Virus record (IMG/VR): IMGVR_UViG_3300017971_000041
Coordinates: 1 to 64,000 of that record
Length of the DNA: 64,000 nt
Direction: 5' to 3' (one strand)
DNA from: a virus
Position 1 is the stretch's first letter; each line of letters starts with the position of its first letter. This document shows positions 5,213-54,868 of this stretch, one piece after another. Both the position numbers and the translations under genes were made by a program. Below the pieces are notes generated by a model. That model saw only the letters and a list, made by a program, of their open reading frames with translations, had not been told where the DNA came from and did no database searches.

Positions 5213-6019
5213 ATGCCACAATTGCAAAATTCCAATTATGTCAATAGCTTAATCGTTCCAGTCTGGGAAAAATACCAGACTGATATCGAGGCTGGGTTCA
5301 AAAAAATTGCTAATTTTTTTGCTTGGCAGATGGTTTTTGAAGTCCGCGCCTCAAATCCGGGTGCAGGTAAAGATGCAATAAATAAGGCATTGGGGAGTTT
5401 ACTTGATGCTTATTTAGAAAAAGAACGTATAATTTTGAAGGAAAAGTCCCACATAGAAGAGACTACTACTGACAAAATCGTTGATATTGTTCGAGATGGT
5501 GCCAAAGAAAAGAAAACGATCAAAGAAATGCAACAGGCAATTTCAGATTCAGGGACATTTTCACCTGAAAGATCACTACGAATTGCTCGTACCATGACCG
5601 GTACAGGCGCCTCACTGGGACAATTACACATGGGCGTGGTAACAGGCGCGACTCATAAGTACTGGCGAGCTGCCGGCCATCAGACGAGGAAGCAACATCT
5701 GAAGCGGAACAATGAGAAACGGAAAATTAATGAAACATTTTCAAGGCAGTATGCAGAAAATATCATTGGACCAATGTATCCTGGAGATCCAAACATATGC
5801 GCTTCTGATCGAATCAACTGCCGCTGTTGGTCAACATTCACCATCGAAGGTAAACGTCAAGACGTCCTTGGAAAACTTGACCGTGGTGAAATCACAGCTG
5901 AAGAGCTTTTAAACGACCTTGGCTTGTTGCCAGTCGATTCCGCTATTGTGGTTGGTACCGAGGCTATTATTGAAACAGTAGCAGGCGAAGCATTGGAGGT
6001 TGAGGGGGTATCGGAATAA
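5213..6019 (+). CDS. MuF / SPP1 gp7-type minor head protein (start uncertain)
   Basis: A head morphogenesis protein, normally present in a few copies inside the head near the portal. The C-terminal half carries the MuF signature: charged TRKQHLKRNNEKR, then P-MYPGDPNICASD-RINCRCW (residues ~165-205 from this ATG). ATG 5213 has no ribosome binding site, and homologues have an extra N-terminal helix, which is encoded in frame upstream at 5000-5212. The true product is therefore probably longer, or is the C-terminal part of a portal fusion. It ends in a short acidic tail before the protease gene. Confidence 0.85.
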   Translation: MPQLQNSNYVNSLIVPVWEKYQTDIEAGFKKIANFFAWQMVFEVRASNPGAGKDAINKALGSLLDAYLEKERIILKEKSHIEETTTDKIVDIVRDGAKEKKTIKEMQQAISDSGTFSPERSLRIARTMTGTGASLGQLHMGVVTGATHKYWRAAGHQTRKQHLKRNNEKRKINETFSRQYAENIIGPMYPGDPNICASDRINCRCWSTFTIEGKRQDVLGKLDRGEITAEELLNDLGLLPVDSAIVVGTEAIIETVAGEALEVEGVSE

Positions 6020-6083
6020 AATGAGATCCATAGAACATGATATTGACGATCTTCCAACAGATACAATTTATTAAGGAGTAAAT

Positions 6084-7310
6084 ATGAAACCTGAATATCG
6101 CCAAATCGGCAAAATACACGATTTCCGACAACAAGGGGATGAAGGGTTTGTTGATGCTTATTTGACAACCTGGGGTTCAATTGATTGGTATAATTCCACG
6201 TTTGCAAAGGGAGCATTTGCCGAGAGTTTTCGGACCGTGAAAATGAGGAATTTGTTTAATCATGAAACTCTTATTGGGAAGGTACTTGAGGCCCGGGAGG
6301 ACGATATTGGCCCCTTTGTTCGAACTAAAATTAATCTAAAAACGACTGCCGGAAAAGACACATGGGAGCATATTGTCGCCGAAGACATCGATTGCTTTTC
6401 ATTTGGGTTCAATGTAATTAAGGATTCTCGTAATAAAGCGGGTGTCCGGGTGTTAGAACAGGTTGAAGTTCTTGAGTGCGGTCCCGTTGTGTTCGAAGCA
6501 AATGGAACGGCCAAAATCGTTGATGTCCGCACAGGAACTCCCTTACGGGGAGACCAAATCGAGTGGAATAAAATGACTCTCGAGGAAAGGAGTAAAATGG
6601 AAAAAGAAACAGATGCCCAGCCCGATGGGATAAAACAAGACGAAAAATGTGGAGAGGATAAGCGTAATATCGATTATGATGTAACCAAAAGGCGAAATGA
6701 GTTGGTACGCCGAGGTTCGATCCTCCTTAATTCATTATTCCAGACTCTCGAGGACAATTATTATCCGGCGATTTGGGGCGAGGGATTAACGGGAGATGAT
6801 GCGATTGCCAACATGGATCGAGCCATTGCGTCTTTCCACGGCGATTATATCGGATGGGTCCGGGAAATTTTTGTGGAATTCGGTGTCGACTCAACCGAAG
6901 CTCGCACCATCCAGATTGTGCCCAATGCAAACTCGGAATTGGTCAAGGCTTTCAGGTCGGTAGTTAAAGATCTCGAAGAAAAAGCCATTGCCAGCTCGTT
7001 CACGGTTGACGAATTAAGAACCCTCTCCCGTGGTAATTTGTTACCGATTGAAGTCCGTTCAAAACTCACTGAATTGGGGGAAGAAGTCGAGGGAGCTCAC
7101 CGTCGTGCTCGAACTGCATTGGTTGAGCAATTATGCGCAGAAATCCGAGCTGGCGGCCTGACGGATGCTGATGTATCGAGGATTCAGGCTTTGCTGCCTC
7201 AGCCTGTTAAAGATGGTAAGGATCCTGAAGCTGTCGAAAGTGTCTGGGAATCCTTGGATTCCAAATTTCGATCAATCCTTTTGGGAACTGAAGAACCCGA
7301 AACCAAATAA
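6084..7310 (+). CDS. Prohead protease, HK97 family S78, with C-terminal extension
   Basis: Serine protease that cleaves the capsid scaffold domain during prohead maturation. Candidate catalytic residues are His60 (FNHETLIGKV) and Ser106 (CFSFGF), with the third residue near Glu128-Glu131 (VEVLECGPVVFEAN), in the order seen in U35/S78 proteases. The protease domain spans about residues 5-170. The remaining ~240 residues are helical and charged; an extension this long might act as scaffold or be self-cleaved, which is inference. AAGGAG lies just upstream of the ATG. It precedes the capsid gene in standard HK97 order. Confidence 0.92.
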   Translation: MKPEYRQIGKIHDFRQQGDEGFVDAYLTTWGSIDWYNSTFAKGAFAESFRTVKMRNLFNHETLIGKVLEAREDDIGPFVRTKINLKTTAGKDTWEHIVAEDIDCFSFGFNVIKDSRNKAGVRVLEQVEVLECGPVVFEANGTAKIVDVRTGTPLRGDQIEWNKMTLEERSKMEKETDAQPDGIKQDEKCGEDKRNIDYDVTKRRNELVRRGSILLNSLFQTLEDNYYPAIWGEGLTGDDAIANMDRAIASFHGDYIGWVREIFVEFGVDSTEARTIQIVPNANSELVKAFRSVVKDLEEKAIASSFTVDELRTLSRGNLLPIEVRSKLTELGEEVEGAHRRARTALVEQLCAEIRAGGLTDADVSRIQALLPQPVKDGKDPEAVESVWESLDSKFRSILLGTEEPETK

Positions 7311-7357
7311 AGATCAATCCCAAAAAAAATTTATAACAAAAAAGAAGGAGAAACAAC

Positions 7358-8584
7358 ATGGCCACACCCGAAATGAAAAAGGAATACGACAATTTCCGAA
7401 CCATTCTGGAGGAATTTCGTACCACAAACGACAAACGCCTGGAAGAAATTGAAGCTCGTAATGGAGAAGTCCTGGCGGAAACTCGGGAAAAGCTCGAGAC
7501 CGTCGAGACAAAGCTGAATGAAAGTGCCAAGCACCTGGATGAATTGAGGACCGCGGCGAACCGTCCCAACATTGTACTGGGCAGCGAGAACATGACTGCC
7601 GAGGAACGGCAAATCCAGGAAGTTCGAAAACGTGCATTCGTGAAATATATTCGCTATGGTCTGGGTGAGGAATCTCGCCAGCAATTTCAGCCGGAAGAAA
7701 TTCGTGCCTTGTCTGGGGCTTCCGACGCCGACGGTGGTTTCCTGGTACCCATCGAATTCGAATCCAACATTATCATGAAGGCGTACAACATGGCCGAACT
7801 TCGTCCCATTTGTAACGTTGGGACAACCGGAAGAGACACCGTAGTATCCGGATCTCTGGCCAAACCCGTGGTTGCCTGGGGTCGTACCGCTATTGCCGTC
7901 TCCCCACAGGATCTCGCCTCTGGCGGGTCCATTTTACATGTTCGTACCATCAAGGGTTTGCTTCCCATGGACAACGATACCCTGGAAGATGCCGAAGCGG
8001 ATATTGTCGGCGAGCTGGAAGACGGTTTCTCACGGGCCATCGCCGAAGCCGAAGACGATGCCTTTGCTGTCGGCGCGGGTGATGATTCCCCCCATGGCGT
8101 TGGGTCCAATTCGACCGTCCAGGCCAATTATGCGGCTTCCGGAGTTGCCGCAGCTTTATCCGATTCCACCCACAACGGTGTAGACGCAATCATTTCCGCC
8201 TATTTTAAAATCAAGAAAACCTATCGCCGGAACGGCGTATGGGCCATGAACTCCACGACCGAGGGAGCTGTCCGTAAACTGAAAGATGGTAACGGCCAGT
8301 ATTTGTGGCAACCGGCCGTCGATGCCGATTCTCCGAATACTCTTCATGGCAAGGTGGTAAAGAATGCCGAAGGCTTACCCGACATCGCTGCCGGAGCCTT
8401 TCCGATCCTGTTCGGTGACTGGTTCGCCGGCTACAAAATCCGGGACCGCCGTGGAATCCTGGTTCAGCGTCTCGTTGAAAAATATGCTGAATATGGACAG
8501 ACTGCCATCCTCGTCTCTAAACGTCTCGCGGGCGGCGTCGTACTGCCGGAAGCATTTTCGTGCGTTAAGATCGCGGCTTCTTAA
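7358..8584 (+). CDS. Major capsid protein, HK97 fold
   Basis: A 408-aa HK97-type capsid subunit. Residues ~1-85 form a charged coiled-coil delta domain (scaffold), probably removed by the upstream protease. Mature sequence likely begins around ALSGASDADGGFLVP, the typical N-arm and E-loop start. Codon choice is visibly more GC-rich than its neighbours, in keeping with very high expression. A strong GAAGGAG precedes the ATG, and a terminator-like hairpin follows 22 bases after the stop. Confidence 0.95.
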   Translation: MATPEMKKEYDNFRTILEEFRTTNDKRLEEIEARNGEVLAETREKLETVETKLNESAKHLDELRTAANRPNIVLGSENMTAEERQIQEVRKRAFVKYIRYGLGEESRQQFQPEEIRALSGASDADGGFLVPIEFESNIIMKAYNMAELRPICNVGTTGRDTVVSGSLAKPVVAWGRTAIAVSPQDLASGGSILHVRTIKGLLPMDNDTLEDAEADIVGELEDGFSRAIAEAEDDAFAVGAGDDSPHGVGSNSTVQANYAASGVAAALSDSTHNGVDAIISAYFKIKKTYRRNGVWAMNSTTEGAVRKLKDGNGQYLWQPAVDADSPNTLHGKVVKNAEGLPDIAAGAFPILFGDWFAGYKIRDRRGILVQRLVEKYAEYGQTAILVSKRLAGGVVLPEAFSCVKIAAS

Positions 8585-11106: not shown

Positions 11107-11753
11107 CCAGTGAAACAAAAATAGAGGTCCACGGTGTGGCGGAAGTTCAGTCGTTGATCAATCGCATCCCCGCTGAATTGTTTGATGAAGCACGAGATGC
11201 TTTTGCTGATGCAGTCCTTAAAGCCCAGGAAAAAACCTCCCGAAATTTACAAGGAGGTCCTTTGTTTACGAGAACGGGTCTTTTAGCGAGTTCAATTAAT
11301 GCCGCCGTATCCGACAGGCGTGGTACATTGAAAACGCTAAAAGCTTCGGTCTTCAGTTCATTTATGGTTGGGAGTCAAGAAGTTCCATATGCGAAAATTC
11401 ATGAAGTTGGGGGAACGATAACAGCAAAAAACAAATATTTAAAAGTCCCAGGCGGACCGTATTTAAATATTCCGTTACCACCAAACAAAACCCCAGCAGG
11501 TGTTATGCGAATGACCCCGGCAATGGTTTTCCGATACGGTGGTTTTATTATTAAGTCAAGGAAACAAAATTATATTGTTATGATGCCTGAAAATCGTGCA
11601 AGCAGGACTGTAAAGTCTATTCCAATGTTTGTATTGAAAAAGTCAGTCAATATAAAACCCAGACTCGGTATGCGAAAAGCAGCAGAGGACCAAATCCCTA
11701 CGCTACTTGGGCGTCTCCGGGCACTTCAATTTTCAGGAGGAACTCGTGGCTGA
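11103..11753 (+). CDS. HK97 gp10-like tail completion / head closure protein
   Basis: A 216-aa protein with the gp10 family motifs: RTGLLASSINAAV (~57-69) followed by PYAKIHEVGGTI (~97-108). Proteins of this family join the head connector to the tail. The long basic C-terminus is acceptable for the family. The start overlaps the stop of the upstream membrane protein (ATGA), and GAGGG lies upstream. The stop overlaps the start of the tail terminator gene, so the genes are coupled. Confidence 0.85.
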   Translation: MTSETKIEVHGVAEVQSLINRIPAELFDEARDAFADAVLKAQEKTSRNLQGGPLFTRTGLLASSINAAVSDRRGTLKTLKASVFSSFMVGSQEVPYAKIHEVGGTITAKNKYLKVPGGPYLNIPLPPNKTPAGVMRMTPAMVFRYGGFIIKSRKQNYIVMMPENRASRTVKSIPMFVLKKSVNIKPRLGMRKAAEDQIPTLLGRLRALQFSGGTRG

Positions 11754-12252
11754 TACATGCATAAAACAAATATTGGACAGCGTTAATACGCATCTGGGTT
11801 TTATTACCTTGGCTAATGGGTACCATTACGACATTCAAAAAATCGAACATGAACGAATAAAACCCTTTAATGGGTTTGATATACCGGCGATAAATTACTG
11901 GGAACTTGGTTTCTCGATTGGTGATGCTGGTGAATTGGCATATGGGTATGATAAACGGATTCTTCCAGTTTATTTTGAGGGCTATAATGCAAAATGGGAC
12001 GACGGAAAATCAAATATTGAAGCGGACCAATTTGCGGCTGATATTTTAACTTGTTTGTATCGTACCTCGGCTGCTCCCAAAGTTTCTGATTCGATTAGTC
12101 GGAATCTAGGGGATTTGGTGGCTCATACAAAGATCAATCAGGTTCAGTATATCGTGGATGCAAGTGATAAGCCATATTGTGGTGTTTTGGTTGTTGTTGA
12201 ATTCCATTTCTTTGCAAAAATTGGCGACTTGTATAACATTGACAACATTTAA
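11746..12252 (+). CDS. Tail terminator-like protein
   Basis: A 168-aa protein placed exactly where siphophages encode the tail terminator, between gp10 and the tail tube. The alternating alpha/beta pattern (ILDSVNTHLGFITL..., ELGFSIGD..., VLVVVEFHFFAKIGDLYNI) fits the family. I choose GTG 11746 because AGGAGG lies at ideal distance; an in-frame TTG at 11707 has none. The protein would cap the growing tail tube and fix its length with the tape measure. Assignment relies on context plus fold-like pattern. Confidence 0.75.
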   Translation: MADTCIKQILDSVNTHLGFITLANGYHYDIQKIEHERIKPFNGFDIPAINYWELGFSIGDAGELAYGYDKRILPVYFEGYNAKWDDGKSNIEADQFAADILTCLYRTSAAPKVSDSISRNLGDLVAHTKINQVQYIVDASDKPYCGVLVVVEFHFFAKIGDLYNIDNI

Positions 12253-12263
12253 AGGAGATACAA

Positions 12264-13289
12264 ATGGCTACTTCAGAAAACGCAAAAGTCCAGATTGAAT
12301 CTGGACAGTCGTTGGTTACTTATGCCCAAATGACCGACAGTGGGGACCAGCAGGTTTTTACCGTTTCCGGGGGTTTGGTTTGGTCTGGTCGAGCAGGATA
12401 TGCTCCGGTAGTTCGACCAAATGGTATTGAATCCGGGCGTAACATTTTATCCGCCCATGCCAGCAATGATACAGTCAGTATTGCCTCGTTTACAGCATTT
12501 ATCGGGGGAACTCAATATTCAGTTAGTGCAACCTCGGCAACCTTCAGTCGTCCGGCGACAGCTTCAAAAGCACAGGTCATATCGATGACTTTGGCTTCTG
12601 ACGGCTCAACCGTCGAAGCCGTTTCAGGTACAATCAGCGCCACTACGGCTTTTTCCGAAACAAGAGGCGCTGCCGGAGGTCCACCACTCATTCCAGTCAA
12701 ATCAGTTGAGTTGGGTCAAATCCGCATCACCGCTGCCACACCCGCCGTGGTTGCTTCGACTGAACTGTACCAAGTTCCTGGCGAACACACAGAACGTTGG
12801 GACTATCCGAACTTTTCGATCAATCGGATAGGCGATGGTGAAGCTGCAACCGTGGCTGCTAAAAAGAACGCCCATGTTGTTTTCGATGACGCAATGGAAG
12901 CGAACCATGTTGGTAGCGTGGCCAAGCAGGTGTTTATTCAATATTATACACCGATCTTTTCGAAAGTACAACGTGCTATCGACTTTACCCCCATTGAGGA
13001 GAGCCATTCGGTTAACAGTCAAGAATTTTACGGGGGAACTGTTGCATCGAAAACGTCCTCACTTGGCCAAGGTTCGTTTACTGCCTTGCTTGACGATGGT
13101 GTTCGGGACAACCTGGTTGCTTTGAAAAATCAGCTCCTGACTTTTAAGTTCTTCCCGGATGAAAATAAAACGCCGTATGTTCTCACCCAGGGATATCTGG
13201 GTCTGGGTCGTACATTCCCGAAGAGCAATCAAAATCAGGCAGCTGCGACGATTTCCGGCGAAACTCAATCGGCGGAATTTAATTCTTAA
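12264..13289 (+). CDS. Major tail tube protein
   Basis: A 341-aa beta-rich protein between the tail terminator and the chaperone/tape-measure genes, the fixed position for the tube subunit. A small all-beta domain occupies residues ~20-150 (perhaps an Ig-like insertion, rich in Ser, Thr and Ala). The rest (HTERWDYPNFSINRIGDGEA... to VKTFPKSNQNQAA-like end) resembles the tube fold. AAAGGAG is upstream. Polymerised rings form the DNA channel. No closer family can be named by eye. Confidence 0.8.
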   Translation: MATSENAKVQIESGQSLVTYAQMTDSGDQQVFTVSGGLVWSGRAGYAPVVRPNGIESGRNILSAHASNDTVSIASFTAFIGGTQYSVSATSATFSRPATASKAQVISMTLASDGSTVEAVSGTISATTAFSETRGAAGGPPLIPVKSVELGQIRITAATPAVVASTELYQVPGEHTERWDYPNFSINRIGDGEAATVAAKKNAHVVFDDAMEANHVGSVAKQVFIQYYTPIFSKVQRAIDFTPIEESHSVNSQEFYGGTVASKTSSLGQGSFTALLDDGVRDNLVALKNQLLTFKFFPDENKTPYVLTQGYLGLGRTFPKSNQNQAAATISGETQSAEFNS

Positions 13290-13319: not shown

Positions 13320-15158
13320 ATGCCCGCGAAACAAAAACAAATATTGGTAACAGGATTCCCCAGATCTGGGTTTGGCAGCTTAGGTCGGATTCTAAAACTC
13401 AACAGCATTCATGTGGGCCATGAGACAATTGAAGAACATGGGACTGTCTCATGGTGCCACACTGGGTACGGGAAGCTGTCATGGCTTGATGAACCAGTTA
13501 AAGACGTGCGAGACAATTCTGATATTATTGTCCATCTTGTTCGATTTCCACTAAATGTTATAGCTTCAGCAGGGACATTGACCGTGGAAGTAATTAATTT
13601 TATGCGGCAAAATTTAGGGAAACCTGAATTGACCACGGTAACGTTGGCTGATGTAGTTGAATTGTATCTTGATTGGAATCAACGGATCGAAGACAGTGAT
13701 CCACATTGTTGCATAAAAATTGAAGACTTGAATGATTCGGCAGCAGTTCGGGGACTGATTGATCGCTTACGGGCTCCCATGGCAGCGGCCTTTTATCAAG
13801 ATAAGATCGAAAAGGACTTCAATGCTCGCTCACACCAACAGCTGAATTGGCGTATTTTACGAAACGAATTGCCGACTGAATTGTTTGATCGGTTGGTTGC
13901 TAAAACGGAATCATATGGGTATCCGATTCCTGAACCAACCACCGTGGCTGTGTGTATCATGGGGAAAAATGAAAAGCATTACCTCGAATCGTTGGTTAAA
14001 AGTATTAAAGAAGTTAGCCAGCCGAAATCAAAATTTTATGACCGGGCTGTGTATCTCGATACCGGTAGCACTGACGGGTCAGTCGAGTTTATGGAAAAAG
14101 CAGGATTCGAGGTTCATCGAACTGAGTGGCAAGACAATTTCTCTCTGCATCGGAATGAGCTTATTGATATTGTCAAAACTGGATGGATCGTGATGGTTGA
14201 TTGCGACGAACGATTAGTTGGTCATTTCGGGCTCCTGAAGGGTCTCCTCAGCGATGTTCCCTATGATGTCAATGCTCTACGAGTTCGTATGGAAGATTTT
14301 AAAAATGGCAAGGCCTCGATGGTGTGGAATGTTGAGAAAATATTCCGGGCTGATACGTGCCGCTATGAATCCCGCGTCCATAATCAATTGAAATTCGAAG
14401 GGACCGCGCCCCAATGGATGGATGGGAAAATTGAGCACCATGGCTATGATATTTCAAAAGAAGCTATGGATAAGAAAATGGCCCGGACCCAAAAATTGCT
14501 GGCAATGCGGTTAAACGAAAATCCAGACGACCATGATGTTTATTTTTACATGGCCCAGAACGAATCGTATTTTAATAATTATGAGACGGCATTGGGATAC
14601 GTTGAGAAATATATCGAGGCTTATGCAAATAATTCGAAAATCAATAAATCGATATATCTGATTTATTGCCAGCTTCTTTATAATCTCGACCGGTTCCAAC
14701 AACTCGAGGGCGTATATGAATGGTTACTTGTGAATTCCACACATGACCTTGATGTTTATTATCACATGACGGTTTATGGGATTTCAAAGCGAAAGAGTCG
14801 ATGGATAAAGATCGGGACAGAAAATTATATTGAAACCAGTCTCCGTTTCCAGCAATCGCCGGAACTCATGAACTCGTTCTTTTTTCACTACCTCGGCGAT
14901 GAGCATTCCATTTTCATTTTGTCGGCAAATACCACGGAATTGTTTCGGTTAGCTGTAGAACGCCATAAGTACTTGCACAAACTTAAGTCAATCGTCCCAG
15001 AGGGCCATACTTTTGCAGCCAACGTTGACAAACAACTGAAACGATATGGAGTCACTATCGGCTCGAATGTCCAGACCGCGAAGTTGAACAAATGGAAAGA
15101 CAAACCCTACCGTGGTAAGAAAAAATCGAAAAGGGTCCGCCGCGCAAAAAGGCATTAA
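13320..15158 (+). CDS. Sulfotransferase-like + family 2 glycosyltransferase + TPR fusion
   Basis: A 612-aa three-part protein. Residues ~8-22 (TGFPRSGFGSLGR) match the 5'-phosphosulfate loop of PAPS sulfotransferases, and LVRFPLNVIAS (~73-83) matches the 3'-phosphate site. Residues ~208-420 are a GT2 domain: VCIMGKNEKHYL, DTGSTDGS (247-254) and DCDE (294-297) as the DXD metal site. The remainder is TPR-like helices with a very basic tail. It has no export signal, so it acts in the cytoplasm. Placement between tail tube and chaperone genes suggests modification of a virion protein, which is inference. GGAGG is upstream. Confidence 0.85.
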   Translation: MPAKQKQILVTGFPRSGFGSLGRILKLNSIHVGHETIEEHGTVSWCHTGYGKLSWLDEPVKDVRDNSDIIVHLVRFPLNVIASAGTLTVEVINFMRQNLGKPELTTVTLADVVELYLDWNQRIEDSDPHCCIKIEDLNDSAAVRGLIDRLRAPMAAAFYQDKIEKDFNARSHQQLNWRILRNELPTELFDRLVAKTESYGYPIPEPTTVAVCIMGKNEKHYLESLVKSIKEVSQPKSKFYDRAVYLDTGSTDGSVEFMEKAGFEVHRTEWQDNFSLHRNELIDIVKTGWIVMVDCDERLVGHFGLLKGLLSDVPYDVNALRVRMEDFKNGKASMVWNVEKIFRADTCRYESRVHNQLKFEGTAPQWMDGKIEHHGYDISKEAMDKKMARTQKLLAMRLNENPDDHDVYFYMAQNESYFNNYETALGYVEKYIEAYANNSKINKSIYLIYCQLLYNLDRFQQLEGVYEWLLVNSTHDLDVYYHMTVYGISKRKSRWIKIGTENYIETSLRFQQSPELMNSFFFHYLGDEHSIFILSANTTELFRLAVERHKYLHKLKSIVPEGHTFAANVDKQLKRYGVTIGSNVQTAKLNKWKDKPYRGKKKSKRVRRAKRH

Positions 15159-18543: not shown

Positions 18544-18885
18544 ATGATTTGTATATCGAGTACCATTGGGAGTGGTCGTTCGGTACAATTCCAGGAAACA
18601 GGCGAGACGATATTATACAATTTAAAAGCCCGTTTGTCTCATTCTGAATTATTAGATGGGACTTCATTCGTCTTACATTCCGGAACGAATGTTGGGGACA
18701 TGACACCTAACATTTCCGCGGATTATGAACCGACACTCTGGGCAACTTTAAAAGAGATTCATGAAAATGATTCGACAGTTTTATTATCATGTAAGGAGGG
18801 GCTGTTTTTAGCTTACATCGATTTTCTGTCTTTAAAAGGGACCCAGATCCAAATAACTATGAGGATCCAACAAAGGGAGACATAA
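18544..18885 (+). CDS. Hypothetical protein between tape measure and glycosyltransferase
   Basis: A 113-aa protein beginning one base after the tape measure stop; GGGGAT is the only ribosome binding site. The stop overlaps the next start (TAATG), which suggests co-translation with the glycosyltransferase. The second half is mostly beta (SADYEPTLWATLKEIHENDSTVLLSCKEGLFLAYIDFL). No signal peptide is seen and no family is recognised. Position suggests a distal tail protein or a partner of the glycosyltransferase; neither is proven. Confidence 0.7.
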   Translation: MICISSTIGSGRSVQFQETGETILYNLKARLSHSELLDGTSFVLHSGTNVGDMTPNISADYEPTLWATLKEIHENDSTVLLSCKEGLFLAYIDFLSLKGTQIQITMRIQQRET

Positions 18886-20030
18886 TGATAGCCGCCGCGT
18901 TGATGTTACGCCCAGATGAGTCTGGGCTAGAAAAATGTTTAAATTCAATAGACCCAATAGCAGACGAAATTGTCGCTGTTATCACGGGGGAACCGAGCCA
19001 AAGAACCAAACAGCTATTGTCACGATTTAATGTACAGTTCAATACCACGGTTTGGCGTGAAGATTATTCATATCACAGAAATCAATCTTTCGACATGGTA
19101 AGTCCGGAAGCTGATTGGATCTTGCGTATTGACAGCGACGAGGAATTGATTTTACTGGACAAGAACCAACTGATCAATACACTCAAAACTGCACCAAAAG
19201 AAGTTGATTGTTGTAGATGCAAAATGAAGGACTACCGTGGTAATACCGTCGTGATGGAATTTCCGCAATTGCATTTCTTTCGCGCAGGAACTGTCCAGTG
19301 GCGATATCGAAAACATAATACTCCTATATTTGCTGGAGAAATTATGCATCTCGATTCGTGTGTAACACACCATTATGGGTATGATCTTGAGCCGAAAGCC
19401 ATGGAGGCAAAACGGCAAGAAGCAATTCGGTTGATCAAATTGACGATGCAGGACTATCCCGGTGAGTATCCCGGAGATTTTTATCTTTCCCAGATTTATG
19501 CACAGGATAAACCCAATGAAGCGATTAAACATCTGGTAAAATACATTGCCGAGAATGAAGATTCACCAGGATTTTTGAAGGCTGCTTATTCGTCTCTGAA
19601 TTCCTTGTATGAAAAACTGGGAGAGACTGATAAGGCAATGGAAATTTTAAAAAGAGGTCTGGAGAAATTACCTCTGGATCTCGATTTAAATTTTCTTTTA
19701 TGCCATCAATCTGTTCGAGATAACGATTACCAGTCGATGGTTAAAGGTGCGGAGAGATACATTCAAGCATGGAATATTTATAAAAAACATGTTGACTTTT
19801 ATGATCATTTTTGTTATTTTCATACGGATGAACACATTAGATTCGTATTGCATAAACTGGCCATTGCTCGGCTGCAAGAAGGAATTAGTTACGTTAATCA
19901 CTTTTTTGGATTTGCGGATACTGATAACATTAATGACATAATGGTAAAAGACTTATCAATCCTTGGCATTGATTGGGAATGGGACGTCAATTATCCCATC
20001 GATGCTCAAAATATCCTAAAAGGAGTTTAA
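18885..20030 (+). CDS. Family 2 glycosyltransferase with TPR-like C-terminus
   Basis: A 381-aa cytoplasmic protein. The N-terminal GT2 domain shows MLRPDESGLEKCLNSI, DYSYHRNQSFD and RIDSDEE (DXD at ~83-85), then a His-rich acceptor region (THHYGYD) like that in the upstream fusion gene. Residues ~200-330 are TPR-like helical pairs (YEKLGETDKAMEILKRGLEKLP). It resembles the GT2-TPR part of the 13320 gene, so the two are probably paralogues, but this one lacks the sulfotransferase domain. GGGAG is upstream. It could add sugar to a tail or tip protein. Confidence 0.82.
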   Translation: MIAAALMLRPDESGLEKCLNSIDPIADEIVAVITGEPSQRTKQLLSRFNVQFNTTVWREDYSYHRNQSFDMVSPEADWILRIDSDEELILLDKNQLINTLKTAPKEVDCCRCKMKDYRGNTVVMEFPQLHFFRAGTVQWRYRKHNTPIFAGEIMHLDSCVTHHYGYDLEPKAMEAKRQEAIRLIKLTMQDYPGEYPGDFYLSQIYAQDKPNEAIKHLVKYIAENEDSPGFLKAAYSSLNSLYEKLGETDKAMEILKRGLEKLPLDLDLNFLLCHQSVRDNDYQSMVKGAERYIQAWNIYKKHVDFYDHFCYFHTDEHIRFVLHKLAIARLQEGISYVNHFFGFADTDNINDIMVKDLSILGIDWEWDVNYPIDAQNILKGV

Positions 20031-43674: not shown

Positions 43675-45663
43675 CTATTTTTTATATCGTTTTGTTTCGA
43701 ATCCAGCCGCCTTAAGTGGAAAACCAGTGTATACTTCGTCTCGATTACACATGATTTTATTGACTTCATCAATCGAGACCCCTCCATCAATCGGGGTTTC
43801 AATCACGACTTCGTCGTGGACAGTCAAGATTATTTTGTGTCCGAGTCTTTCGAGATCCAAGACAGCTTCCATCAATATCTCCCGACACATTGCTTGAGTT
43901 GCATTTTCAGCCAATCGACCAGGAGTCAATGACACCCGTCTCCAACTGTTTTTTGAAGTCATCCCCAGGTGTGTTACAGATTGAGTCCAACCCCAAGGCG
44001 CCTTTACTTCCTCCACCCGTGGTTTATAATATGCTAGGGCTTTCCCGTTGGGGAGAATCAAAAAAAGAAATCCTTGATGGCTCATAAATTGGATGTATCC
44101 AAATGAGGTCAAGGTACCTTGATTGATGATTGCGTCTTCAGCTGCGTCTTTGAGACCATACCAGAATTCTTTTACATGATAATATTTTTCACGGAAAATA
44201 TCGATTGTTCGTTTTGCTCCAGCCATGTCAAGATTGAAGCCTCTCATTAAACAATCCTCGAGGAATTTCTTGGCCCCCATCCCATATCCGCACCCGAGAA
44301 TTGTAAGCTTCCCGTGTCGTCTCATTTCGGAATCCTTTGGGATTTGATCATAGGACAAGTCGTAAAGTGAAGTCGCCATATCTGTATACAAACACAATCC
44401 GTTTTCAATTTTCCGCAATGCATCTTCTTGTCCGGCTAACCAAAACAAACCACGGTTTTCGACTTGTGAGTAATCAGACACAACAAATTTATATCCAGGA
44501 GGAGCGGTGATAGAGGGGCGTATCAACGCGGAACATGCATATAAGAAGTCAGGAAAGACACCCATCAAATCGACCAACGAATCATTTTTAAACATTTCAA
44601 TGGCTTTCTCGATATCCATTGATTTGATTTCAGCTCGAGGCAAGTTTTGAGGCTGCAATAAACGGCCTCCCTCCCGCCCCGTGGTAGCTCGATGGTATTT
44701 AAGACAATCACGGATTCGCCCGTCGAAACACACAGCTTGCTGTAGTTTGGGGAATTTTTTAATCGAACTTTTCCCAGCTGTTTTTCGAATTTCAAGTAAC
44801 GTTTTAACGCCCGGAAAATTATCAATCTCTGGATCTTCGAGACTTTTTGTAACAGTGTCAGCAGTCAAGTCTGGCAATTCATATCCCTGCGATTCGCACC
44901 ATTGGAGGATTTTTGCTCGTTGATTAATTGTTTGGACTTTATTGCCAGTTATGATTCCGACCATCGCCGTAACATCTTCGAGATATTCCTCGGTTCGATT
45001 AACCACGGCATCGATTAATTCGAGATCAATCGGAATTCCGCGTTCATTTTTTCGGACGGTATGGCGCCAAATTTCGAGTTCATTACCAACGTAGCCCCAG
45101 GGAAGTTTGGTGAGGATGGCACGTTCGGCTTCCACGTCCTGGATGCAGTAGTCGTACATTTCTTGATAAAGGTCCGGAAATAGTTCCTTTGTCCATCGAA
45201 TGTACGGGTTTTTCTTTGATGGTTTTTGTGGTTTCGACAATTTCTGAATTAAATATGATCCCCGTTTGTCTTTTTGGATTGCCAATTTCAGGACCTCACC
45301 ACATTTGTCAAGAGCCAACGGGAGAGCGAATGCCGAAGCAATTGCTTGTGTGTCACGGTATTGGTTGAAGGGAATTTTCGGCCAAGCGAATTTTCTCATG
45401 CAAACATAATTCCAAAGATATCGCTCGAAGGCAACATTCCAGCCATATACCAAGTATCCGGCCTCGATTCGCTCAAACAAGTCAACCGGCGGTGGAAGGT
45501 CTGGGTGCCAGAGTCTGGGTTCTTCATCATTGAAAGCATATGCCAGACAGATGATGTCAGTTGAGGGATCCATTGCATATCGACCCGACCCAACAACTTT
45601 AATGTCAGCTTTCGAATATGACTCAAAGTCCATGTTTATTCGGGGGCTTTTATCGTCTTCCAT
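43675..45663 (-). CDS. Family A DNA polymerase with 3'-5' exonuclease
   Basis: A 662-aa replicative-type polymerase. The exonuclease starts at DFES (Asp12, Glu14), with NVAFE near 76 and YCIQD (Asp176). The polymerase part shows GREGGRLLQPQNLP (~329), motif A VVSDYSQVENRG (Asp397), motif B KLTILGCGYGMG (~452-463) and motif C VHDEVV (~615-620). No 5'-nuclease domain is present. It resembles T7/podophage-type Pol A enzymes. It would copy the phage genome together with the helicase, primase and ligase. Confidence 0.93.
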   Translation of the reverse strand: MEDDKSPRINMDFESYSKADIKVVGSGRYAMDPSTDIICLAYAFNDEEPRLWHPDLPPPVDLFERIEAGYLVYGWNVAFERYLWNYVCMRKFAWPKIPFNQYRDTQAIASAFALPLALDKCGEVLKLAIQKDKRGSYLIQKLSKPQKPSKKNPYIRWTKELFPDLYQEMYDYCIQDVEAERAILTKLPWGYVGNELEIWRHTVRKNERGIPIDLELIDAVVNRTEEYLEDVTAMVGIITGNKVQTINQRAKILQWCESQGYELPDLTADTVTKSLEDPEIDNFPGVKTLLEIRKTAGKSSIKKFPKLQQAVCFDGRIRDCLKYHRATTGREGGRLLQPQNLPRAEIKSMDIEKAIEMFKNDSLVDLMGVFPDFLYACSALIRPSITAPPGYKFVVSDYSQVENRGLFWLAGQEDALRKIENGLCLYTDMATSLYDLSYDQIPKDSEMRRHGKLTILGCGYGMGAKKFLEDCLMRGFNLDMAGAKRTIDIFREKYYHVKEFWYGLKDAAEDAIINQGTLTSFGYIQFMSHQGFLFLILPNGKALAYYKPRVEEVKAPWGWTQSVTHLGMTSKNSWRRVSLTPGRLAENATQAMCREILMEAVLDLERLGHKIILTVHDEVVIETPIDGGVSIDEVNKIMCNRDEVYTGFPLKAAGFETKRYKK

Positions 45664-45665
45664 GT

Positions 45666-46427
45666 TTACTCCTTGTATTGAGGAAGGTTTGATGGTAAAG
45701 TTTCGTGAATACCTTCGGTTATTTCATGGTTCTTATCGATTTTACCGATTGCCATTACTGAGATTGCTGCCATTTGCAACAGCCGCTTCTTTAGCTCAAT
45801 TCGCCAGTGGGGATTTTGTAACGAGATTTGTGAAATCTTATCAAGACGTTTAGCAAATACTCGTCTCATTTCCTCCAAACCCATCCCGTGGTTCATGTCA
45901 GACCAAAGAAATTCTTGGACGGTCCTGGCGGCTTTAATCGTTTTAGCGATTGCTAATTCTTCGAGGTCAAGGGCAGCTTGTGTGTCTTGATATTGGATTT
46001 CCTTGATATTAGCTTCCCGGATAAGGGCATCGCGGCAATCGCTGGATAAATAGTGTTTGATATAGTAAATTCGTTTAATTTTTGTCGTTGATATCAGTTT
46101 AATACAATTAATACAAGGTCGTACTGTACAATATAACTCTGTGTTTGTCAACCCTTCTTTTCCACAGGATTTTAATCCCTCGATTAAGACATTTACCTCA
46201 GCGTGTATTGCCGGACATTTATCAAGGTCTTTTCCTGAATTGTCGCCTTTAGGATTTCGTTTACAGGTTTCACAATGGGGGTGACCAGATGGGGGCCCAT
46301 TGTAACCGGTTGCAACAATTCGACTATCTCGGACCAACAATGCCCCAACCCGACGACTGAGGCACGTTGACCGAGCGGCAACCAATTTTGTGATTTCCAT
46401 AAAATAATTTTGGCGGCCGAGTCGCAT
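45666..46427 (-). CDS. dCMP deaminase with C-terminal extension
   Basis: A 253-aa zinc enzyme. The deaminase core has RVGALLVRDSRIVATGYNG, HAE (His75, Glu77) and PCINC (Cys105, Cys108), converting dCMP to dUMP. The last ~95 residues (MRRVFAKRLDKISQISLQNP, then LLQMAAISVMAIGKI) form an extra helical domain not found in ordinary dCMP deaminases; its role is unknown. It lies between the polymerase and a ThyA-family enzyme, four bases from each, suggesting tight coupling. Confidence 0.9.
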   Translation of the reverse strand: MRLGRQNYFMEITKLVAARSTCLSRRVGALLVRDSRIVATGYNGPPSGHPHCETCKRNPKGDNSGKDLDKCPAIHAEVNVLIEGLKSCGKEGLTNTELYCTVRPCINCIKLISTTKIKRIYYIKHYLSSDCRDALIREANIKEIQYQDTQAALDLEELAIAKTIKAARTVQEFLWSDMNHGMGLEEMRRVFAKRLDKISQISLQNPHWRIELKKRLLQMAAISVMAIGKIDKNHEITEGIHETLPSNLPQYKE

Positions 46428-46430
46428 GAT

Positions 46431-47126
46431 TTAGAATTCTCCTTTGACATGGGCGTGGAAAGTATGTAACGATCCGATGTTATGATAAAACCACCCGGGG
46501 GTAACGCCAACTTGGTCAGCGATATATTGCATCAATTTGATCGTGGTATATACATCCGATGCATAAAATAAAACATAATCACACGATCTCTGGGAATAGA
46601 TAACGTGTAATTTATTTCCACGGATGAAGAATTGATAAGTCAAAGAGCACGGGACTCGGTCGCGGCCTCCCCAGTTCATCATGTCTTTGTTCGATTCATA
46701 CATGGAAATAATTGCCTGGCGAGTATTCGGACGTTCTTTCAATTCCTGAATAACGTACGGAATCTGGGCCTGCCAGCGTTCGGGATAGGCGTAAGAGAAA
46801 CAGCCATTGCGGATATAGGGTTTCCAAAAATCCTGTCGAATTTTCCAAGCTTCGCCGGGATTTTTATTGACGATGGAAAAATCCAGTCGTTCGGCAATTT
46901 CTGCATGGACCCAATCAATATCCATGTTCATGTAAGCCAGCAATTCCTCGAGGTCGTTGTACTGTTGAATGCAGTAGGAATAGCTCATGAGTTCGAGAGT
47001 CCGGAAGTCCGGATCGTCGCCGACGTATTTGTCTTGTACGGTATCGGACTGGTATTCGATTCCCATTTCTTTCAATTCCCGTGCTAACTCTTTAGCACAC
47101 TCGATAGTCGATTGATAAACTCTCAT
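46431..47126 (-). CDS. ThyA-family enzyme, predicted dCMP hydroxymethylase
   Basis: A 231-aa thymidylate-synthase-fold protein. The core matches ThyA: RPNTRQAII, the nucleophile in RVPC (Cys160), QFFIRGNKLHVIYSQRSCD (Arg180-Asp183), and a C-terminal GSLHTFHAH. Where ThyA has GLPFN, this has FYASD: Asp191 replaces the Asn that selects dUMP. The same Asn-to-Asp change marks T4-type dCMP hydroxymethylase, so dCMP is the likely substrate. The overall length is short for ThyA. GGAGG precedes the ATG. Confidence 0.8.
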   Translation of the reverse strand: MRVYQSTIECAKELARELKEMGIEYQSDTVQDKYVGDDPDFRTLELMSYSYCIQQYNDLEELLAYMNMDIDWVHAEIAERLDFSIVNKNPGEAWKIRQDFWKPYIRNGCFSYAYPERWQAQIPYVIQELKERPNTRQAIISMYESNKDMMNWGGRDRVPCSLTYQFFIRGNKLHVIYSQRSCDYVLFYASDVYTTIKLMQYIADQVGVTPGWFYHNIGSLHTFHAHVKGEF

Positions 47127-47138
47127 TATTTTCCTCCG

Positions 47139-47207
47139 TTAATAAAATAATAATATGAATAACACGTACCCAATGATGAAAATACTTAAAATTGTGTCAG
47201 AATTCAT
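47139..47207 (-). CDS. 22-aa membrane microprotein (candidate)
   Basis: A short ORF between promoter 47217-47245 and the ThyA-like gene: MNSDTILSIFIIGYVLFILL then FY and stop. It is one hydrophobic helix. The upstream GAAAGAAA is a poor ribosome site. It could be a leader peptide for the next gene or a membrane-active microprotein; equally it may not be translated. Confidence 0.35.
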   Translation of the reverse strand: MNSDTILSIFIIGYVLFILLFY

Positions 47208-47216
47208 GATGTTTCT

Positions 47217-47245
47217 TTCATAACACACATGGATGTCAGAGTCAA
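47217..47245 (-). promoter_or_regulatory. Sigma70-like promoter
   Basis: Leftward TTGACT (47240-47245), 17-bp spacer, TATGAA (47217-47222). It drives the 47207 ORF, the ThyA-like gene and the polymerase operon. Confidence 0.65.
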
Positions 47246-47251
47246 TAAATT

Positions 47252-48397
47252 TTATCTGCCAAGGTGTCTCTGGACGATTTTATTTTGTTTGGCTAGTCGA
47301 ACACATGAAGGCCGGTATCTGGGTCTCTCGGTCAAAAATGCATGAAATTGATCGATTAAGAAGCCCGGGAATTCACACGGGATACATCTCCCGGTTTGAC
47401 GAATTAGCGTCCCATTCATGTTGTGGCGCCAGGTGCCATCGTCTTCAAGTTTTTCGGAATAAAAAATAAAGTCATCGGGAAAGCCCATGATTCGAGCTCG
47501 TTCACGGATCGTTGTTGGTAAGTTCGTTACTGGGTGAATGATCGGGTTGGTACCAATCAGTGTCGGGGAAGGCCCATCGTACTTCGGTTTTCGAAAACCG
47601 AAATGGAATTTCTGTTCACCACGGTCATTGATATAATGTAGGGGTTTGTTGTCCTTTTTATCCCTGAAGATCTTTTGTACTTCTCCCCAGTTCATGGGTC
47701 CATCACGAAAAACCCGATTCCCAGCACGGGCTGAACTGTGGATTGAATGGAGAATATGGTTCGGCAACCTCCCGTGGCAGTCCTCAAGGTCCCGGATAAC
47801 TTCTTTCAATGATTTCCCAATGTTGCGTTCGCCCGGCATGAATTGGTAGCCTAGATCGTGCAAGGAGGCAATAATAAACAGACGGTTCCGGTTCTTTTGG
47901 GAATTACCGTAGTGATAATTCGATACATATTCCACGTCAATGTGGTAATCAGGCAACAGAGATTTGTACAGCTCTGGCGGATTTGCTTCAAGGGATTTGG
48001 GAAGGTTGTCAAAGAAAGCAAACTTCGGTTTAATGACATTAACTATTCGAATCCATTCAAGAAACTCATCGGAGGCTTTCGATGCATACTCTTTACGTTC
48101 TGCCCCTGTTTTGTTGACGAGATTCGAATAGCGTCCACATTTCGGGTGTCCCCCGATAACATCGACCTTTCCAACCAAATCCTTTTTGATAAAGTCTGGC
48201 AGTTCGCTGTCTGATTTGACGAGCCAGGCGCCGGGGAAATTTTCGAGGAAGGTATTTCTGCCGTTTTCATCGAAGTGATGGCAAAACCCCCGAGGTTCAA
48301 TGTTCCCATATAATTTATGGCCAGCTCTATGGGCATAAACGAATGGTGACCCGATTCCCGCATATACACCCAACATTTTCAAAGGTCTTTCAATCAT
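47252..48397 (-). CDS. DNA cytosine-5 methyltransferase-like protein (divergent)
   Basis: A 381-aa protein with the C5-MTase order of motifs: VYAGIGSPFVYAHRAGH (I), IEPR (II), GGHPKCGRYSN (IV, Cys87 as nucleophile), FFDNLPKS (VI, Asp in place of the usual Glu), QKNRNRLFII (VIII), RERARIMGFPDDF (IX) and QTGRCIPCEFPG (X). Motifs IV and VI depart from GGPPCQ and ENV, so substrate or chemistry may differ. ATG 48397 follows TTGGAGA. It may protect phage DNA or act on modified cytosine. Confidence 0.82.
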   Translation of the reverse strand: MIERPLKMLGVYAGIGSPFVYAHRAGHKLYGNIEPRGFCHHFDENGRNTFLENFPGAWLVKSDSELPDFIKKDLVGKVDVIGGHPKCGRYSNLVNKTGAERKEYASKASDEFLEWIRIVNVIKPKFAFFDNLPKSLEANPPELYKSLLPDYHIDVEYVSNYHYGNSQKNRNRLFIIASLHDLGYQFMPGERNIGKSLKEVIRDLEDCHGRLPNHILHSIHSSARAGNRVFRDGPMNWGEVQKIFRDKKDNKPLHYINDRGEQKFHFGFRKPKYDGPSPTLIGTNPIIHPVTNLPTTIRERARIMGFPDDFIFYSEKLEDDGTWRHNMNGTLIRQTGRCIPCEFPGFLIDQFHAFLTERPRYRPSCVRLAKQNKIVQRHLGR

Positions 48398-48454
48398 TAT
48401 ATTTTCTCCAAGTAACAAGCATTTAATTCGTTATGGTTCATGGGGGCCTTTTAT

Positions 48455-49081
48455 TTAATAATTCGAATTTTGCCGGAAAACATTGACCAATGCTTTTTTA
48501 TGATAAAAAACATACAAAGCTTCCATTGACCCGACATGGTGAAAAATCGTATTCAACAAAGAAACGTAGCCGAGGACCATCGAACTCACGAATCGGTTCC
48601 AGTCAGTTAACACATGGGTGTTTTTCCACGGTTTGTTTTTAAGGAGATTGCAGGCTATTCCAATGTGATAGGTGGTATTCAGCATTTGCAGTGGATCCTT
48701 TACCAAGTCAACCGTCGGGCGGGGGGTGTATTTCTCGAAATGGGTCGGTTGGATATCACACAGAATGAGCATTTCGGTATAGAAGTGCAAGGCGTCAATC
48801 AATTCTTCGACCAGATGTACCTTGCTGTGGTCCGCGGCTTCGATGGCTTCGGTAATTTCTTCTGTTACACGCCAGGCATAGTCTTTGATAATGTATTGCC
48901 AAACCGGGTCGTCAATCGAAAACGGCCGACCAACAACGAAACCCAAGCCCAGACCATTGCCTTCCTCAATGCCTTTATATTTTTCGTGCAATTCCGCCTG
49001 TCTGGCGAAGATTCCTTTAATTTGTTCGAACGGTGTTTTTGGGATGACTAATCCTTTTACGTCTGCGTCGTTGACATTCAT
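48455..49081 (-). CDS. All-alpha dUTPase/dCTPase-like NTP pyrophosphatase
   Basis: A 208-aa helical enzyme of the dimeric dUTPase/MazG superfamily. The metal motif lies at WRVTEEITEAIEAADHS (Glu74, Glu75, Glu78) and VEELIDALHF (Glu92, Glu93, Asp96). T4 gp56, a dCTPase/dUTPase, belongs to this superfamily and removes dCTP in a phage with modified cytosine. Here it sits beside a predicted dCMP hydroxymethylase and dCMP deaminase, so it may supply dCMP/dUMP; substrate choice cannot be read from sequence alone. AGGAGG is upstream. Confidence 0.82.
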   Translation of the reverse strand: MNVNDADVKGLVIPKTPFEQIKGIFARQAELHEKYKGIEEGNGLGLGFVVGRPFSIDDPVWQYIIKDYAWRVTEEITEAIEAADHSKVHLVEELIDALHFYTEMLILCDIQPTHFEKYTPRPTVDLVKDPLQMLNTTYHIGIACNLLKNKPWKNTHVLTDWNRFVSSMVLGYVSLLNTIFHHVGSMEALYVFYHKKALVNVFRQNSNY

Positions 49082-49139
49082 GATTTTTCCTCCTATTGCA
49101 ATTTAATAAGTTTAACATTGTCCACGTCATTGACATGGT

Positions 49140-49652
49140 TTAGGTTTCGTAACCAGCCTCTCTGCATATTCTTTTTAATCGTATCATAGACAAATTTCGA
49201 AAGTCAACAGGAATCACTTTTAAATCAAGAATTGTCGAACAATGGACCATAATATTTTGGTATCGAGTATAAATATCAAAGTACCGTTGTCGAACTTGCT
49301 CCACGTGTTCTTTGGATTTATGTTCTTTCTGGTTCAAGTAATGCAATTTTGATTCCAGATATTCCCATCCGGGGTTGCAATATATAATAAAAGGATTTAA
49401 TTTTTGTAGTGCGTTCCACAGTATTTCGGGTTTGACAAGGATTTTACCACGGAGGGTGCAATATACTTGTTCGGAAATACACGGGTGGCGGTCCAAAAGC
49501 ATGTCCTTCGGAGTATTTTCAATTCGGGCCATAATTTCTTCAGGTGACTTCGGAGGCGCACCGAAATGGTGAATTTTCAAACCAGTGAATTCCGAAAGAT
49601 GCCTCCCAACCGTGGTTTTCCCAGACAAATCGGGTCCTTCTAATAATATCAT
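49140..49652 (-). CDS. Thymidylate-kinase-like P-loop nucleotide kinase
   Basis: A 170-aa kinase with Walker A GPDLSGKTT (~6-14), a DRHPCISE segment like the TMPK DR motif (~55) and a basic lid (VRQRYFDIYTRY). It probably phosphorylates a deoxynucleoside monophosphate. In this operon it could act on the product of either ThyA-family enzyme. The start ATG overlaps the end of the 50011 antisense frame, which I reject. GGAC precedes the start. Confidence 0.85.
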   Translation of the reverse strand: MILLEGPDLSGKTTVGRHLSEFTGLKIHHFGAPPKSPEEIMARIENTPKDMLLDRHPCISEQVYCTLRGKILVKPEILWNALQKLNPFIIYCNPGWEYLESKLHYLNQKEHKSKEHVEQVRQRYFDIYTRYQNIMVHCSTILDLKVIPVDFRNLSMIRLKRICREAGYET

Positions 49653-53118: not shown

Positions 53119-53889
53119 TTATTTTCTCACAGCAATTTCATTATTGGTAACGGCTTCCGACAATTCGAAAGTATAATCATACAGATGCAGGCCCTTCGAG
53201 GTTGCAATGATTTGTCCGTTGTCGACTCCGATTTCCGAGGCACAAATTTGCTTTAACATTTCGATTATGGCCAAGTTTGCTGGAAACCCAGACCATAAAT
53301 CCCAGGACCGGAAATAAGGAAAGAAATGCAATGCTCCATCCTGAATCCGAGTATCGATATGGCGTAAGCATGGCGGATCGACCAAGCTCATGTCCGAAGG
53401 TTTGGCAATTTGTAGGACCATTTGGTTGTTTCGAGGCCCAAACGCCTTATACGTCCGAATCATGTAATCGACTTGATTTAACAAAACACATGGATTTGAT
53501 CGTAAAGAGGTGAAAATACCACGGAGGAGGTCGATGTTAGTTTCTCGAACTTCCGTGGTGATATCTTGTGCATATAAACGGTTTCCATAAGTATATGCTT
53601 CGTTGTCATCTATGTCAGGAGTCAAAAGGTATTGGGAATATCCCTCGACATAGCCTTCTTGAACGGGGTCCGGCAGTCCCAAAACGGGGTTCAGTTGAGG
53701 CAACATGGGATTGTCCCACGGACGTCGGATGTGGATAGTTACGAAATCCAGCTCGAGTCGTTTGCTTAAAGCAAAGGATCCTTTATCAATGTTAAATGTT
53801 CGGCCTTCGGTAACAGCAGCATATACTGCTTGGAACCAAGCATCGGAGATTGTTACTGCATCAATTGAAATAGGCTTAAGTACGTCCAT
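53119..53889 (-). CDS. ThyA-family thymidylate synthase, divergent type
   Basis: A 256-aa ThyA-fold protein. The catalytic site is DPPCLRHID (Cys174), followed by a strand ending in FRSWDLWSGFPAN (Arg194, Asp197, Gly201, Asn205) and HLYDY. All dUMP-contact residues, including the Asn that selects uracil, are present, so dUMP is the likely substrate. The N-terminal ~100 residues differ from bacterial ThyA. With the Asp-type enzyme at 46431, the phage carries two ThyA paralogues. It acts in dTMP or modified-dUMP synthesis. Confidence 0.82.
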   Translation of the reverse strand: MDVLKPISIDAVTISDAWFQAVYAAVTEGRTFNIDKGSFALSKRLELDFVTIHIRRPWDNPMLPQLNPVLGLPDPVQEGYVEGYSQYLLTPDIDDNEAYTYGNRLYAQDITTEVRETNIDLLRGIFTSLRSNPCVLLNQVDYMIRTYKAFGPRNNQMVLQIAKPSDMSLVDPPCLRHIDTRIQDGALHFFPYFRSWDLWSGFPANLAIIEMLKQICASEIGVDNGQIIATSKGLHLYDYTFELSEAVTNNEIAVRK

Positions 53890-54340: not shown

Positions 54341-54868
54341 CTAAAATATTATTTGTTTCATGAACGAAACGGTTCCTTGGCGTAGATTTCCACGTTCGGG
54401 GCGATTCGTGAAAATATAGTCATAATCGAATTCCATTGACAGAATGTCAGCCGTGCAGTCTGGTACCGGTTTATTCGGATCCCGGACGAGTACGGTTATA
54501 AAATCGACTGGACACTTTTGTCGAAGTTTATTGATTTCCTTCGGCTCCCGGACATGTACAAATAAAACGAATGGTTGTCCGAGGTTCCTGCAAGCCCGGA
54601 TTTGTTGAAGAGTCTCCTTCAACGGGAAATCACAGTAGTCGATGGAAAGCCACTTCAATGTTTGCCAATGGTTCCTCAATTCGTCCGTCTTGCCTTCGTC
54701 GCCTTCTTTGATTCCGACCATTGCACAAGCTTTTTTAATTGTATCAATGGTCGAATAATTAAAAGACCAAACCCCGTGGCGGTCCAATAGCTTGCGCAGT
54801 TCCTCAACAAAGGTGTCCTTTCCGTGGCCACCTGGGCCATTTACAACAATAACTTTTTGGATTTCCAT
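54341..54868 (-). CDS. P-loop deoxynucleotide kinase-like protein
   Basis: A 175-aa protein with Walker A VNGPGGHGKDTF (~9-20), a DTIKKACAM segment and a C-terminal TNRPERGNLRQ. The GKDT form of the loop is typical of phage dNMP kinases and their relatives. A second kinase of the TMPK type lies at 49140. It probably works on deoxynucleotides, but which one is unknown. It starts two bases before the nuclease stop downstream of 54871. Confidence 0.78.
   Translation of the reverse strand: MEIQKVIVVNGPGGHGKDTFVEELRKLLDRHGVWSFNYSTIDTIKKACAMVGIKEGDEGKTDELRNHWQTLKWLSIDYCDFPLKETLQQIRACRNLGQPFVLFVHVREPKEINKLRQKCPVDFITVLVRDPNKPVPDCTADILSMEFDYDYIFTNRPERGNLRQGTVSFMKQIIF

Follow-up and report, generated by a model that had tools for sequence, protein, structure and literature searches.

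The 64 kb window analysed here (positions 1 to 64,000 of the 66,676-base virus record IMGVR_UViG_3300017971_000041) points to a modification of cytosine in two stages: deoxycytidine monophosphate (dCMP) would be modified before replication by ThyA1, a predicted dCMP-modifying enzyme of the ThyA family (231 amino acids; 46431–47126, minus strand), and the DNA would then receive a carboxymethyl-type tailoring from a neighbouring C5-cytosine-methyltransferase homologue (C5MT; 47252–48397, minus strand). To this reading as a whole we assign a probability of roughly 45%. Its first part, a cytosine-modification operon by which modified cytosine is made before polymerisation, is well supported, since residue Asp191 of ThyA1 is invariant, the synteny is conserved and the set of Pfam families is tied to modified-cytosine contigs (PMC8670742). 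Gene content, residues, synteny and co-occurrence are observations, from which we infer all of the chemistry. A sequence-only reading had already proposed a hydroxymethylated or otherwise modified cytosine but passed over C5MT, which lies inside the very interval it described; because this gene was missed, that reading reaches no further than the first half of the likely pathway.

Asp191 of ThyA1 aligns with Asp179 of the deoxycytidylate hydroxymethylase (dCH, gp42) of phage T4 and with the Asn that selects deoxyuridine monophosphate (dUMP) in ordinary thymidylate synthases (TS), so that the gp42-type change recognised in the sequence-only reading is borne out by the alignment. It is invariant across 22 aligned family members, and the catalytic Cys160 (Cys148 in T4) is likewise invariant in the family. 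An Asp at the ThyA selector site changes the substrate from dUMP to dCMP and is a marker of contigs with modified cytosine, with which a thymidylate synthase carrying this residue (Asp177), PRA-PH, dCMP deaminase and MafB19-deaminase are statistically associated (PMC8670742). Asp191 therefore supports dCMP as the probable substrate of ThyA1.

ThyA1 (PF00303, E 1.2e-17; phrog_160, E 6.4e-29) and C5MT (PF00145, E 1.2e-14) belong to a minus-strand block that begins, in the order of transcription, with a P-loop protein resembling deoxynucleoside monophosphate (dNMP) and thymidylate kinases (170 amino acids; 49140–49652; phrog_761 only, E 4.5e-10, with Pfam matches under the cut-off) and an all-alpha nucleotide pyrophosphohydrolase of the dUTPase_2/MazG type, either a dUTPase or a dCTPase (208 amino acids; 48455–49081; phrog_12184, E 2.6e-15; PF08761 with 23.3 bits, which barely passes the cut-off of 22.9). 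These are followed by C5MT, ThyA1, a dCMP deaminase with the zinc site HAE and PCxxC (45666–46427; PF00383, E 1.9e-21; phrog_174, E 2.8e-41) and, as the final gene, a family A DNA polymerase (PolA; 43675–45663; PF00476, E 6.1e-18, and synteny). The kinase-like protein, the pyrophosphohydrolase, ThyA1 and the deaminase are thus found on the minus strand where the sequence-only reading had placed them, the kinase-like assignment being weak. The intergenic gaps inside the block measure 2 to 125 bases, and the same gene order is kept, at 43–73% protein identity, in related phage contigs from other metagenomes, which argues that the block did not come together by chance. In two of these contigs (L005 and L006) it is retained from the kinase-like gene through the polymerase and in two others (L002 and L012) from the methyltransferase to the polymerase, with identities in these four of 59–62% for C5MT, 67–73% for ThyA1 and 45–51% for the deaminase; the kinase-like gene has syntenic homologues in L005, L006, L009 and L010. 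The deaminase of the window carries approximately 100 additional C-terminal amino acids in comparison with several syntenic relatives (141–153 amino acids), and PolA of L005 (12233–14318) is seemingly split over two frames near position 14016, possibly by a frameshift or an assembly error.

C5MT has overall the fold of a C5-methyltransferase (AlphaFold2 model with a mean confidence, pLDDT, of 91.9; the best structural matches include M.HaeIII, plant MET1, M.HhaI and CmoX, 8yf3), and its motifs are remodelled. In the window they read GHPKCG (Cys87), FFDNLPKS (Asp130) and YGNSQKNRNR. Throughout the C5MT clade HP[KE]CG replaces GPPCQ in motif IV (HPKCG in the window, the Pro and Gln of the canonical PPCQ being replaced), while the Cys corresponding to Cys87 is retained in every complete family sequence. 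Motif VI has changed from ENV to D[ND]LPKS: the Glu of ENV is present in all 110 other C5-methyltransferases compared, and Asp stands there in 18 of the 19 family sequences that have a residue at this place. Motif VIII has one additional residue. The Asn position of motif X, which is Asn in 103 of 110 other C5-methyltransferases, is basic in 20 of 21 family sequences (Arg in 6, Lys in 14), Asn occurring only in L039. This is the position (Asn304 in M.HhaI, Arg350 in CmoX) that contacts the carboxyl group of carboxy-S-adenosylmethionine (Cx-SAM), and the variant N374K of M.MpeI was engineered for the use of Cx-SAM (PMC12783734). In an alignment with the CmoX orthologue of Synechococcus phage RN05-S, Arg337 of the window protein falls on Arg350 of CmoX. 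The remodelling suggests that C5MT is a Cx-SAM-dependent tailoring enzyme, predicted to transfer a carboxyl-bearing group. In the tree the clade is supported with 100/99, and its sisters, L044 and L052, with 98/93. One relative (L036) has tandem genes of the C5MT variant (4422–5627 and 5615–6829), the second with PDYF for PDDF and with HPDC in motif IV. Two C5-methyltransferase relatives from gut-type or environmental records (L150, L151) have GSPxCG, ENLPK and YGNSQK, with an Asp-type ThyA elsewhere in the record, and resemble a stage ancestral to the clade, motif X being lost or unaligned.

When viral and bacterial genome collections were scanned with the methyltransferase, not ThyA, as the query, all 19 loci of the C5MT clade had a ThyA relative within 10 kb, in every case with Asp in the selector column. 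Of the other C5-methyltransferase loci, 3 of the 17 viral ones and none of the 79 bacterial ones were accompanied by an Asp-type ThyA (3/96), and two of these three belong to the sister group L044/L052. Fisher's test gives p 6e-19 for the association, a value computed on loci that are not independent (L007 and L008 are near-identical, and the window-type loci are close kin). The complete co-occurrence and the confinement of the motif changes to the clade that pairs with ThyA suggest that ThyA1 and C5MT share a substrate. They also weigh against the alternative that there are two separate modifications on different bases, ThyA1 replacing part of the cytosine pool and C5MT carboxymethylating or methylating leftover plain cytosines in a short motif. 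In its favour, CmoX, which has the same fold and catalytic Cys, acts at GC on plain cytosine (PMC12783734), and Cys87 is kept in the C5MT family; on balance we regard such a division of labour as rather unlikely. A contig binned as Myxococcaceae (L060:8001–10522), possibly a prophage or a phage contig, has a pair of C5MT variant and Asp-type ThyA, and in L052 an Asp-type ThyA (5872–7818) is interrupted at the catalytic Cys by an apparent intein, a second Asp-type paralogue lying in the same record (3812–4744).

A possible third partner appears in the relatives. A homologue of asparagine synthetase is found in 12 of 12 viral records with the Lys-type C5MT (Lys in motif X), in none of the 6 Arg-type records including that of the window, and neither in the Asn-type L039 nor in L044/L052; among 16 Asp-ThyA records picked without reference to the methyltransferase it is present in one. 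In the Lys-type homologue the N-terminal Cys and the SGGLDS loop are intact. CmoY, an amide ligase of the asparagine synthetase family, joins 5-carboxymethylcytosine to glycine, and members having a glutamine-hydrolysing domain are inferred by the same authors to use ammonia (PMC12783734). The Lys-type C5MT and the asparagine synthetase homologue thus look like a pair for carboxymethylation and subsequent amidation. A different asparagine synthetase gene, with a stronger score, lies in the record of L014 (G020:25080–25892), which has an Asp-type ThyA and yielded no PF00145 methyltransferase. Eight relatives (L007, L008, L010, L029, L035, L038, L040, L041) have, adjoining the Lys-type C5MT operon, a gene for an N6/N4-type amino-methyltransferase of approximately 290–305 amino acids (in L010, at 11504–12391, with a match to PF01555), which may be a third modifier; no window-type locus was seen to have it.

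The pathway that we propose starts with ThyA1, which, to judge from Asp191 and the gene context, would add a C5 substituent to dCMP, not to dUMP, before polymerisation. The pyrophosphohydrolase, the kinase-like proteins, the dCMP deaminase and a second ThyA (ThyA2) would then deplete the dCTP, phosphorylate the newly formed nucleotide and provide deoxythymidine monophosphate (dTMP), in parallel to the roles of gp56, gp1, cd and td in T4. ThyA2 (53119–53889, minus strand; PF00303, E 1.5e-10) is nearest to TIGR03283, with 89.6 bits under the cut-off of 174.55; it has, as the sequence-only reading had claimed, Asn in the selector column, besides Cys in the catalytic column, and can serve for the synthesis of dTMP. 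Another protein of the dNMP kinase kind (54341–54868, minus strand; phrog_139, E 2.8e-6, a weak match) is a possible counterpart of T4 gp1. In the third step C5MT would move the carboxymethyl group of Cx-SAM, a donor bound through Arg337, to the pre-modified cytosine in DNA or to cytosine instead, and in the relatives only, the asparagine-synthetase-like enzyme would convert the carboxylate to the amide; the window phage, without such a gene, would retain the free acid. The pre-modified base is in our view the likeliest target, because C5MT accompanies an enzyme that would occupy C5 and because the catalytic Glu and motif IV are changed in just that company. A chemical precedent is the tRNA route from 5-hydroxyuridine (ho5U) to 5-carboxymethoxyuridine (cmo5U), in which CmoB uses Cx-SAM (cited in PMC12783734). 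In its most explicit form, which we put forward as tentative, ThyA1 would be a third kind of dCMP-specific ThyA, with Arg instead of the Asp that activates the water, and would oxygenate C5 before replication; the remodelled C5MT would then O-carboxymethylate the product from Cx-SAM to 5-carboxymethoxy- or 5-(carboxymethoxy)methylcytosine, which relatives would amidate via the glutamine-dependent asparagine synthetase homologue.

Several observations speak against this two-stage pathway. A C5 substituent on all cytosines would leave a C5-transferase without its ordinary substrate, and the retained catalytic Cys is not obviously needed for O-alkylation. CmoX stands elsewhere in the tree, on a long branch and not with the C5MT clade, so that the Arg or Lys of motif X would be convergent. 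An asparagine-synthetase-like gene is missing from the record of the window phage. Finally, CmoA (TIGR00740) is absent from this record and from 20 related ones, and a search by tblastn with phage CmoA gave nothing significant; Cx-SAM would therefore have to be supplied by the host.

With respect to the group added by ThyA1, T4 offers the most familiar model: ThyA1 would make 5-hydroxymethyl-dCMP, the DNA would contain 5-hydroxymethylcytosine (5hmC), and C5MT would be a sequence-specific methyltransferase of little relevance. Indeed, the parallel to T4 that the sequence-only reading had drawn is nearly complete, with counterparts of gp42, 56, 1, cd and td, ThyA2 being the functional counterpart of the last. 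ThyA1 shares with gp42 the ThyA fold, the catalytic Cys and the dCMP-selecting Asp, and it ends ten residues past His221 without the C-terminal tail of TS, as does T4 dCH (PMC6400193). However, the signature of hydroxymethylation consists of an acidic residue (Asp or Glu) at the third position ahead of the Cys together with Ser/Thr-x-Tyr, and in T4 dCH the Asp concerned, Asp145, activates the water, the D145N variant yielding no 5-hydroxymethyl-dCMP (PMC6400193). In ThyA1 this position is Arg157, with Arg invariant among all aligned relatives, and Ser94 of T4 is replaced by Tyr112 (His or Tyr in relatives); Tyr96 is kept as Tyr114, and for the catalytic Glu60 the N-terminal alignments disagree about the counterpart. 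Unlike T4, moreover, there is no conserved module of alpha/beta-glucosyltransferases, the operon of the window having instead C5MT, which is syntenic and conserved alongside ThyA1. A plain T4-type pathway is for these reasons unlikely. Since ThyA1 is without the Asp145 and Ser94 signature and its nearest solved relative is by deposition a dCMP hydroxylase, what stands of the sequence-only reading is a cytosine modified before polymerisation (Asp191, synteny, PMC8670742), whereas a hydroxymethyl group is one candidate among others.

That relative is AfhB of Escherichia phage HY126 (9iqu/9iqc), the best match both by sequence among solved structures (E 1.6e-14) and in the fold search (E 1.6e-16), which shares the dCMP-selecting Asp and the short C-terminus; 5-hydroxy-dCMP synthases are members of the TS superfamily (PMC13390438). 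If ThyA1 were such a synthase, C5MT could O-carboxymethylate the 5-hydroxyl group to 5-carboxymethoxycytosine, the DNA counterpart of the conversion of ho5U to cmo5U by CmoB. Yet the identity to AfhB is just 21–22% approximately, the query TM-score is higher for MilA (0.80), and AfhB has Glu at the position three residues before the Cys and Thr at that of Ser94, where ThyA1 has Arg and Tyr. There is also no conserved glycosyltransferase or flavin partner, and unlike in the AfhB system no arabinosylation genes were seen. ThyA1 thus matches neither T4 dCH nor AfhB exactly, as far as its aligned residues tell, and a hydroxylase of the AfhB kind is no less doubtful than a T4-type hydroxymethylase. 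Synthesis of 5-methyl-dCMP, as in XP12, is very unlikely: a single change from Asn to Asp is enough to make thymidylate synthase methylate dCMP (Liu and Santi 1992, cited in PMC8670742), but ThyA1 is without the tail that seals the active site of TS for hydride transfer (PMC6400193), and methyl is a less likely substituent than one that bears oxygen (hydroxymethyl or hydroxyl). Mere housekeeping of the nucleotide pool with unmodified DNA bases is less probable still, for although dCMP deaminase, dUTPase and thymidylate synthase are common in phages with normal DNA, an Asn-type ThyA2 is already encoded, and the Asp of ThyA1 is invariant across relatives and linked to modified-cytosine contigs.

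Both halves of the proposed pathway have known relatives. Like the MetaGPA contigs, in which the combination of an Asp-type ThyA (Asp177) with PRA-PH/MazG and dCMP deaminase neighbours was already described (PMC8670742), the window has these enzymes as neighbours; unlike here, those contigs carry a 5hmC carbamoyltransferase. Carbamoylation of that style was rejected, PF16861 being found in none of the 36 records tested. Carboxymethylation and amidation of cytosine by CmoX and CmoY are also known, from the CmoA-CmoX-CmoY system of Synechococcus phage S-B43, which forms 5-carboxymethylcytosine (PMC12783734). With it the window shares a basic residue where the carboxyl group of Cx-SAM is contacted, and the relatives of the window phage share the asparagine synthetase homologue. 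In contrast to CmoX (SPPC, ENV), however, the C5MT clade has HP[KE]C-G and D[ND]L (GHPKC in the window), no CmoA was found, and the clade is always paired with an Asp-type ThyA. The survey in PMC12783734 demanded SPPC, which puts the clade outside its filter, and thymidylate synthase goes unmentioned in that paper. In the searchable literature, which mostly lacks subscription journals and preprints, we found no publication that connects an Asp-type ThyA to a CmoX-like enzyme or to an asparagine synthetase homologue, so that priority elsewhere is possible; within this literature the ThyA/C5MT combination and the HP[KE]C-G / D[ND]LPKS clade appear to be undescribed. Our analysis names a clade of C5-methyltransferases that a requirement for SPPC would exclude, and it is a warning that not every Asp-type ThyA should be annotated as a hydroxymethylase. 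If the pathway is true, it unites two routes known separately, precursor modification by a ThyA relative and post-replicative carboxymethylation and amidation of the CmoX/CmoY kind, and it would provide a new base for restriction and type IV systems to recognise and a new enzyme for the functionalisation of DNA.

Searched directly at the nucleotide level, the phage collection yielded no match, nor was there a signal in the window's dinucleotide composition. Base glycosylation by GT2-like genes was considered as part of the module and rejected, since such genes occur in only some of the related records and are unlinked to the operon. In the window two GT2-like glycosyltransferase genes lie within the tail/structural module (13320–15158 and 18885–20030), the second with TPR repeats.

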